A stretch of DNA of 54,078 nucleotides, taken from positions 1-54,078 of the forward strand of contig SLQX01000089.1 of assembly GCA_007131245.1 (NCBI GenBank), in the 5' to 3' direction. Each line of letters opens with the position of its first letter. Positions within the stretch are counted from its first letter, which is position 1. The position numbers and the translations under genes were made by a program. The notes below the pieces were generated by a model that searched no databases, was not told the DNA's origin, and saw only the letters and a list, made by a program, of their open reading frames with translations. This DNA comes from Bacteroidales bacterium. Lineage in GTDB: Bacteria; Bacteroidota; Bacteroidia; Bacteroidales; UBA7960. This document shows, piece after piece, positions 8,455 through 10,030 of this stretch.

Positions 8455-8531
8455 GGCTCCGTAGCTTAACTGAATAGAGCACCTGACTACGGATCAGGAG
8501 GTTCCAGGTTTGAATCCTGGCGGAGTCACCA
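8455..8531 (+). tRNA. tRNA-Arg(ACG)
   Basis: A 77-nt cloverleaf with CCA encoded in the DNA. The acceptor stem pairs GGCTCCG with CGGAGTC. The D arm is GCTT/GAGC, the anticodon stem is CCTGA/TCAGG around the loop CTACGGA, giving anticodon ACG, and the T arm is CCAGG/CCTGG with loop TTTGAAT. It decodes CGN arginine codons, probably with A34 edited to inosine. It has its own promoter upstream and an intrinsic terminator 10 bp downstream. I see no duplicated tRNA 3' end nearby that would mark an integrated element. Confidence 0.97.
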
Positions 8532-8848: not shown

Positions 8849-10030
8849 ATGCTAAATATCATTATGTTTGGCCCTCCCGGAGCAGGAAAAGGCACCCAGT
8901 CACGAAGATTGATGGAGAAGTACAACCTAACCTACATCAGCACTGGTGAATTACTTCGCAAAGAAATCAAGGAAGGTACCCAGATAGGGAAAAAGGTAAA
9001 GGAGCAAATTGAAGGGGGCGGCCTGGCAGATGATGAAACCATCGTAAAATTAATAAACAAAGCCATAAAAGATCACGAAAGCAGTGAAGGTTTCCTGTTT
9101 GATGGTTTTCCACGCACATACGTGCAGGCATATATCCTCGACGGGCTGTTTATAAGATTAAGACAAAAAATAACATCCATATTTATCCTGGAACTTCCCG
9201 ATGAAGTTTGTAAGCAAAGATTGCTTCAAAGAGCCAAGGAGCAGGATAGAAAAGATGACAATGAAGCTGTTATAAAGAAACGACTGGAGGAATATCACCA
9301 AAAGACCCTGCCCCTTTTAGAGTTTTACAAGGACACGGGATTGCTTACCCATATCGATGGTACAGGTACTGAGGATGATATTTTCCGGCGAATAAGTAAG
9401 CATGTAAATGAAGACCTCAAGAAAAAAGCGACCAATGTAGTGATGTTTGGTTACCCGGGTGCAGGAATGACCACGCAAGCCAACCGGCTGGCCCATGAAC
9501 TGAACCTTAAAGTTATTTCTACCAGGGAAATGTTGCAGGAAGAGGTAAGGTTACAAACCAGCATCGGCAAGCAAGTACAGCCCTATATGGAAAAGGGGTT
9601 GTTGCTGCCCGATGAAATTGTTATACGCTTGCTTGAGAAAAAACTGCTGGAAAACAACAGCAGCGAAAGAGGCTATGTTTTTAAAGGTTACCCCCGTACA
9701 CTGGTGCAAGCCTATATTCTGGACGGAATTTTACAAAAAAAAGGGCAGGACATTACCTGTGTTATAAATCTGAATGTTAGCTACATAGAGTTAATGAAAA
9801 GGCTTGATGAAAGGAGCCGGACATCAAGAAGAATGCCTTATGACAGTTCGGCATCCACCATTGTTTCACGGTTGGAAGAGCATGAAACACATAGTCGCGG
9901 CGTCTTGGAGTATTACAGGGAACAAAACCAGGTGATTGACGTGGATGGCACTGGCGATATCGATGAAGTGTACCAACGAATCAAAGAACCTGTTCTCAGG
10001 GCCAGCAAAAACCTCAGGCAGATACTTTAG
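8849..10030 (+). CDS. Tandem adenylate kinase; second domain lacks key catalytic residues
   Basis: A 393-residue protein made of two adenylate-kinase domains in a row. Domain 1 (about 1-190) is intact: P-loop GPPGAGKGTQ with Lys14, AMP-binding DGFPRT (Asp85, Arg89) and a short lid with RKDDNE. Domain 2 (about 195-390) keeps the fold but has GYPGAGMTTQ, so Met207 replaces the P-loop Lys. It also has KGYPRT, with Lys279 for the Asp. Both halves share QAYILDG after the PRT motif, which points to an internal duplication rather than a fusion of unrelated kinases. Domain 1 should interconvert ATP+AMP and 2 ADP. Domain 2 is probably a regulatory or structural pseudokinase. Normal Adk is about 190-220 residues. 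The stop codon overlaps the stop of the convergent M14 gene. Confidence 0.9.
   Translation: MLNIIMFGPPGAGKGTQSRRLMEKYNLTYISTGELLRKEIKEGTQIGKKVKEQIEGGGLADDETIVKLINKAIKDHESSEGFLFDGFPRTYVQAYILDGLFIRLRQKITSIFILELPDEVCKQRLLQRAKEQDRKDDNEAVIKKRLEEYHQKTLPLLEFYKDTGLLTHIDGTGTEDDIFRRISKHVNEDLKKKATNVVMFGYPGAGMTTQANRLAHELNLKVISTREMLQEEVRLQTSIGKQVQPYMEKGLLLPDEIVIRLLEKKLLENNSSERGYVFKGYPRTLVQAYILDGILQKKGQDITCVINLNVSYIELMKRLDERSRTSRRMPYDSSASTIVSRLEEHETHSRGVLEYYREQNQVIDVDGTGDIDEVYQRIKEPVLRASKNLRQIL

Follow-up and report, generated by a model that had tools for sequence, protein, structure and literature searches.

Tandem adenylate kinases of Bacteroidota with a predicted pseudo-adenylate kinase as second domain

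Introduction

A gene at positions 8849 to 10030 of a Bacteroidales contig (SLQX01000089.1, assembly GCA_007131245.1, GTDB lineage UBA7960) encodes a protein in which two adenylate kinase (Adk) domains follow one another in a single chain. The contig was analysed over a stretch of 54,078 nucleotides, here called the window. The N-terminal half of the protein (N half) carries a canonical catalytic site; its C-terminal half (C half) has Lys in place of the Asp that serves as Mg ligand, a hallmark that it shares with nearly all the C halves of the tandem Adks that we compared. Adk is a model enzyme, usually viewed as one unregulated domain that keeps the adenylates in equilibrium. The best explanation of the whole, which we consider evenly poised between right and wrong, is a catalytic Adk joined to a pseudo-Adk that would bind an adenine nucleotide without Mg2+ and, acting in cis, tune or stabilise the active half. 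Judged from the sequences, the parts of this reading are not equally firm: the C half is very probably inactive as a catalyst, is fairly likely to bind a nucleotide (less so in the class with a P-loop Met to which the window protein belongs), and regulates the N half in cis with a probability that we put slightly below even.

The features of the gene are listed below. Residue numbers such as K13, R36 and D84 are those of E. coli Adk.

8849..10030, + strand: tandem adenylate kinase gene, type A, dispersed class; ATG start, 393 residues, relatives in the genus
8849..9418, + strand: N-terminal catalytic Adk domain, residues 1-190; canonical catalytic-site residues, match of the AF2 model
8870..8899, + strand: canonical P-loop GPPGAGKGTQ with Lys14; Lys in 140/140 N halves
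9101..9118, + strand: DGFPRT with the Mg-ligand Asp85; Asp in 140/140 N halves
9428..10027, + strand: predicted C-terminal pseudo-Adk domain, residues 194-393; Pfam match, conservation, tree of the halves, model of the half alone
9449..9478, + strand: degenerate P-loop GYPGAGMTTQ, Met207 codon at 9467-9469; Met in 13/140 C halves, all of the window type
9536..9538, + strand: Gln230 at the site of the AMP-phosphate Arg36; in 12/12 type-A genes of the genus
9683..9685, + strand: Lys279 (KGYPRT) at the site of the Mg-ligand Asp84, C-half hallmark; Lys in 134/140
9839..9844, + strand: Tyr331-Asp332 of the C-half LID motif MPYD, in place of R-x-D-D; Tyr in 98% of 118 C halves

Two adenylate kinase domains in one chain

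The Pfam family ADK (PF00406) matches two stretches of the window protein, with 282 bits overall, and each half passes the cut-off of 26.8 bits on its own (162 and 125.9 bits). The two domains had been proposed in an earlier note made from the DNA alone, and the motifs on which that proposal was based (Lys14 in GPPGAGKGTQ, Asp85 in DGFPRT, Met207 in GYPGAGMTTQ and Lys279 in KGYPRT) are all exact in the translation. The heptapeptide QAYILDG, named there as common to both halves, does occur twice (residues 93-99 and 287-293), and the suggested alignment of the halves gives 39.6% identity over 187 positions (E 7e-46), far beyond chance.

The N half has K13, R36, D84, R88, R119, R123, R156, D158, D159 and R167. 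The C half keeps R88, R119, R123, D158 and R167 and departs from the canonical catalytic set by four changes (K13 to Met, R36 to Gln, D84 to Lys and D159 to Ser). Its Arg328, directly before MPYD, aligns with R156, a site at which the 11 relatives within the genus carry Lys or Met instead.

Conservation of the two halves

Residue conservation was followed at 23 positions in 140 distinct tandem proteins. The N half is canonical in 140/140 at 22 of these positions, the remaining one (D33) being Asp, Glu or Asn. In the C half, position 84 is Lys in 134 proteins, Asn in two, Thr in two and Asp in two; position 13 is Lys in 71, Arg in 56 and Met in 13; and R36 is kept in 69, being elsewhere mostly Glu, Gln, Asp or Lys. 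Retained in the C half are R88 (127/140), R119 and R123 (139 each), D158 (138), R167 (140) and Q92 (139-140). The LID pair is mostly lost, with R156 in 18/140 and D159 in 5/140, and the R-x-D-D of the N-half LID typically reads x-x-Y-D (the Tyr frequency listed above was taken after removal of near-duplicates). K13, K84, R36 and R88 occur together in 49/140 C halves. By residues, then, the window protein and most of its 140 relatives lack a full catalytic set in the C half, unlike tandem Adks of the AK5/AK8 kind with two active domains.

The hallmark of the C half, as these alignments have it, is the change of Asp84 to Lys with the change in the LID, the P-loop Lys being kept in half of the C halves. 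The earlier note had called the second half degenerate and had laid weight on its P-loop. The first part holds, in that catalytic residues are lost and the half is kept by selection; loss of the P-loop Lys is not what defines the family, since this residue is Lys, Arg or Met by lineage.

Adk genes in the genome, genus and family

The window genome has three Adk genes, so that the window gene is an extra copy there: a canonical single-domain adk on another contig, between hpt and obg; the type-A tandem of the window; and a type-B tandem, 60% identical to the window gene, whose C half keeps the P-loop Lys and has Lys at both Asp84 and Arg36. The family was sampled through 47 genomes, 12 of them in the window's genus. 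Type A is present in 12/12 genomes of the genus, the other 11 proteins being 76-82% identical to that of the window, and type B is of full length in 11/12, with a fragment at a contig end in the twelfth. A single adk was found at E 1e-30 in 10/12, every time between hpt and obg; at the same limit, a lone single-domain match was found in 34 of the 35 family genomes outside the genus, and no match in the remaining one.

Met207, Gln230 and Lys279 are identical in 12/12 type-A genes. The earlier note had held that the second-half changes would be individual mutations if close relatives kept the Lys and Asp; the type-A genes of the genus do not, and individual mutation is thereby ruled out as the origin of these changes. 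The same gene also occurs in named records of different series, namely metagenome-assembled genomes that bear the label Bacteroidales or Bacteroidetes and in several cases a prefix CSSed, which we take to stand for Cock Soda Lake sediment; several of these records are the same genomes as in the genus sample.

Some further copies were seen. One genome of the genus has, beside types A and B, a third tandem of the wider class II kind (L058, G039:C36). In a further genome there is a second single-domain Adk (L060, G040:C54), which is 46% identical to the N half of the window protein and joins the hpt-linked singles as little as the tandems. A type-A tandem of the kind found in the genus also lies on a very short contig (3182 bp, PWNQ01000001.1; L042/L082, G204:C25) assigned to a genome of another family, which has its own class I tandem as well; this contig may be mis-binned or reflect a recent transfer.

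Distribution and genomic setting

Tandems were searched for in Bacteroidota with a profile built from 16 of them (limit E 1e-75); a contig scan with the window protein itself finds close relatives only. In the order sample, 92/393 genomes from 50/207 genera match the profile. Two of these (G192 and G285) turned out to be single-domain, leaving 90 tandem genomes, the window's own included. In a phylum sample of 395 genomes there are eight matches, the window's own genome and seven outside its class, all seven of the dispersed class. The same profile gave three loci in a viral collection, with matches of at most ~180 codons and no full tandem. In a plasmid collection, three records at E 1e-40 match query positions 1-188 only.

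Two classes were distinguished by a residue rule: class I has K13 and R36 in the C half; class II, the dispersed class, has Arg or Met at position 13 and has lost R36. The type-B gene L055 counts as class I under this rule. hpt and/or obg are adjacent in 39/59 class I and 0/59 class II loci, some flanks being 1.5 kb long or ending early with the contig; at the class II locus L202 an hpt-like open reading frame lies more than 2 kb away on the opposite strand and was not counted as linked. Of the 22 tandems in neither class, nine are linked to hpt or obg: eight of the ten that combine R13 with R36, and the only one that combines K13 with Leu36. One gene of each class occurs together in 18 genomes, including the one (G204) whose class II contig is possibly mis-binned.

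Genomic context was considered as a clue to function, including a signalling role, and rejected, as the 30 class II loci have no conserved neighbour gene. A few neighbours of type A recur within the genus, and a tRNA-Arg gene (anticodon acg) lies upstream of the window gene at 8455-8531 (+). At ten loci (L149, L172, L175, L178, L183, L186, L187, L194, L197 and L198) the order is hpt, tandem adk, single adk, obg; at L178 the hpt side is cut by the contig end and hpt is not seen. Some of the singles adjoining tandems diverge fast: L186adj and L194adj form long branches, and L178adj has an altered P-loop (GAPGCGKGKH).

Tandems as the only Adk found

In 34 of 68 tandem genomes, G205 counted, every PF00406 match, checked place by place, lies inside a tandem. 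The earlier note had asked whether a single-domain adk exists beside the tandem: one does in the window genome, at the hpt-obg locus, and none was found in these 34. Three genomes of 100% completeness (G124, G160 and G316) have one tandem each and no other Adk domain was found in them; in a fourth of the same completeness (G629) a class II gene stands alone. Class I tandems, most of which lie at the hpt-obg locus, are often a genome's only Adk in this search. Many of the genomes are drafts, and absence of a single adk depends on completeness estimates. Since no other Adk was found in these genomes, the N half should, on this genomic evidence, be the working housekeeping enzyme there.

In one genome outside this group (G107), a piece of Adk at a contig end (G107:C72:4-366) may belong to another single adk, or else be the front part that the cut tandem at G107:C111 lacks.

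History of the duplication

A tree of the halves was built from 36 of the 140 tandems and 22 single-domain Adks. A branch with a support of 96 in the Shimodaira-Hasegawa-like approximate likelihood ratio test (SH-aLRT) separates the C halves from everything else. The N halves form another group (94), within which two singles are nested (L200 of G192 and L215 of G285). N and C halves together are set off from the other single Adks (96). This is a quick tree, with SH-aLRT values, no bootstrap and long branches; the full-length and residue-change trees are likewise quick SH-aLRT trees, and the order of events rests on all of these. A single old internal duplication best explains the tandems on this tree, as the earlier note had supposed from the shared motif, and L200 and L215 are probable cases of secondary loss of the C half.

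Asp84 survives in two C halves (L195 and L198), and these fall outside the other 34 (90), which tentatively places the duplication before the step from Asp84 to Lys; it is tentative because each of them is a long branch and lacks Arg88. On a tree of 130 rows built without the columns concerned, position 84 needs four changes, position 13 five and position 36 as many as 22. The P-loop Lys has been lost by lineage, and on the trees this loss looks secondary. In the full-length tree, rooted at the midpoint, types A and B group with the dispersed class, beside the rows with a P-loop Arg; the P-loop Lys of type B may have been kept or regained.

Selection, pocket and structure models

Within the genus, the 66 type-A pairs have a median nonsynonymous divergence (dN) of 0.117 in the N half and 0.151 in the C half; for the 55 type-B pairs the values are 0.099 and 0.098. 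The median ratio of nonsynonymous to synonymous divergence (omega), where computable, is 0.026 (N) and 0.041 (C) for type A and 0.042 and 0.033 for type B; synonymous sites are often saturated, synonymous divergence being finite in 12 (N) and 18 (C) of the 66 type-A pairs and in 23 and 30 of the 55 type-B pairs. To judge from these rates, the C half is under purifying selection comparable to that on the N half.

Pocket positions were chosen from the contacts of Adk with diadenosine pentaphosphate (Ap5A). The mean entropy of the C half is 0.51-0.69 bits in the pocket as against 1.31-1.60 bits elsewhere, a difference matched by 0/5000 permutations in either class. The C-half pocket is therefore, as far as residue entropies tell, maintained, less strictly than in the N half, despite the losses of catalytic residues.

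The AF2 model of the whole protein, made with 10 sequences, has a predicted local distance difference score (pLDDT) of 85.5 and a predicted template modelling score (pTM) of 0.57. It matches solved Adks with Z 28 over 189 residues, the matches covering only about residues 1-192. Modelled alone (pLDDT 76, pTM 0.75), the C half matches Adks with Z 20 and 2.1 Å over 181 residues. Between the final N-half helix, which runs to residue 192, and the opening strand of the C half, which begins at 195, the whole model leaves about two residues, and the halves are closely joined in it.

Proposed mechanism and alternatives

The course of events that we propose would start from a single old internal duplication in Bacteroidota giving a two-domain Adk, whose N half would catalyse ATP + AMP <-> 2 ADP. 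The C half would have turned into a pseudo-Adk early, with Lys for Asp84 and loss of Arg156 and Asp159 in the LID, the P-loop glycines, Arg119, Arg123, Asp158 and Arg167 having stayed. In ordinary Adk, Asp84 holds Mg2+ through water; in the C half, the ammonium group of Lys84 would take the place of Mg2+ near the nucleotide phosphates, and could so supply the missing positive charge. The C half would hold an adenine nucleotide, metal-free and without turnover, and its occupancy would alter the conformation or stability of the joined N half, making the two a pseudokinase-kinase pair in cis; the earlier note had likewise imagined a second half that may sense adenylates and regulate the first. 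The dispersed class would also have lost the P-loop Lys (to Arg, and to Met in the window) and the AMP-site Arg36.

Inactivity is the firmest part of this proposal. For Aquifex Adk, published work (PMC11835391) estimates a slowing by more than three orders of magnitude for R36K, R85K, R124K, R150K and R161K, and gives a strongly raised calculated barrier without Mg2+; the E. coli equivalents of these arginines are assigned from their order alone. As the LID Arg and the Mg-ligand Asp are both absent, the C half is, in the light of these data, most likely inactive.

Several observations weigh against the proposal. The P-loop Met and the Gln for Arg36 in the C half of the window protein argue for weak or no nucleotide binding. 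Type-A C halves have a higher dN than their own N halves, the pocket is less conserved in the C half than in the N half (0.10-0.34 bits), and some of what is retained of it may also be core of the fold. With its pTM of 0.57, the whole model does not fix how the two halves lie to one another. Around the 30 class II loci, with flanks of up to 5 kb, no neighbour family reaches one fifth of the loci. Both C halves with D84 lack Arg88, and with the Asn and Thr variants they indicate that Lys84 is not indispensable. Combined loss of K13 and R36 is seen as only two independent pairs on starred branches. Finally, the other 34 of the 68 tandem genomes have (33) or may have (G107) a further Adk domain. 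A bolder version, in which allosteric control is built into housekeeping Adk, the C half being a metal-free sensor of free adenylates (or of dinucleotides, for instance diadenosine tetraphosphate, Ap4A) with Lys in the role of Mg2+ that gates the cell's only Adk, and class II being reset for another ligand by the changes at the P-loop Lys (to Arg or Met) and at Arg36 (to an acid or Gln), is possible and, we think, on the unlikely side.

Among the alternatives, the most serious takes the C half as a ligand-free structural module that stabilises or dimerises the N half or docks a partner, its pocket being kept as fold core. It would fit the heavy active-site losses in the window's class (Met207, Gln230), the undefined interface of the whole model, and the fact that a signalling operon was not seen around the 30 class II loci. 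We nevertheless consider it unlikely, because R119, R123, R167 and Q92 are kept almost without exception in C halves and conservation is higher in the pocket columns than outside them, beyond apparent fold-core need.

Conceivably, too, the C half has remained an enzyme but carries out another chemistry, such as metal-independent phosphoryl transfer or hydrolysis or the use of another substrate, Lys84 standing in for the charge of Mg2+. The 49 C halves with K13, K84, R36 and R88 together would agree with this, as would the cation-independent phosphotransfer reported for CASK (PMC4718504). Against it stand the replacement of the LID R-x-D-D in most C halves and the cost of more than 10^3 in rate estimated for a single Arg to Lys change in Adk (PMC11835391), and it appears to us quite improbable.

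That the C half is a functionless, decaying remnant of the duplication is a very remote prospect. The lost catalytic residues, the P-loop residue varying among paralogues, and the singles L200 and L215, which nest among N halves and may once have had a C half, could be read in this way; however, C-half dN is close to N-half dN, tandems are open through both halves in all the 50 genera noted above, and the C-half substitutions are specific and shared, so that decay was ruled out on dN and pocket conservation. An artefact of assembly or binning, or a chance fusion in this metagenome assembly, would be conceivable for a contig from a 292-contig assembly, but has a practically negligible probability and was ruled out by the presence of the gene in the other genomes of the genus and in named records of different series, tandems occurring also in single-contig genomes (G239 and G258).

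Significance and comparison with known systems

The tandem Adks represent a widespread bacterial form of this enzyme with a conserved predicted pseudo-copy, and half of the tandem genomes examined yielded no further Adk. They let one ask whether Adk is itself a point at which bacteria control their adenylate balance. With Lys, Arg or Met in the P-loop and Lys at the site of the Mg-ligand Asp, they also form a natural series in which to ask whether Lys can replace Mg2+ in a P-loop kinase. Open-access literature searches aimed at a tandem or pseudo-Adk architecture in Bacteroidota found no report of it.

With the single-domain bacterial Adk (PF00406, TIGR01351/PRK00279) the tandems share the family and fold of both halves, the catalytic residues of the N half and the length of the short LID. 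The ordinary enzyme is one domain, whereas here a second domain with Lys for Asp84 and without the LID Arg and Asp is fused behind it. Two Adk domains per chain are also found in human AK5 and AK8; in the tandems described here the second of the two is predicted to be inactive. In CASK the metal-binding Asp is changed, and CASK and metal-independent kinases resemble the C half in having lost this Asp while retaining the nucleotide pocket; CASK has a different fold, and the tandem Adk family has instead a conserved Lys at the Asp position.

A possible parallel in mode of working is the JH2-JH1 pair of JAK, where a kinase and a pseudokinase that share one fold stand in tandem and the pseudo half keeps its nucleotide pocket; it sets a precedent for control of this kind (PMC4718504). 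JAK has the protein-kinase fold, with the pseudo domain before the active one, and works in eukaryotic signalling, whereas the tandem Adk is a nucleotide kinase with the predicted active domain first. The likeness, which the sequences support, would be one of mode of working and not of kinship.
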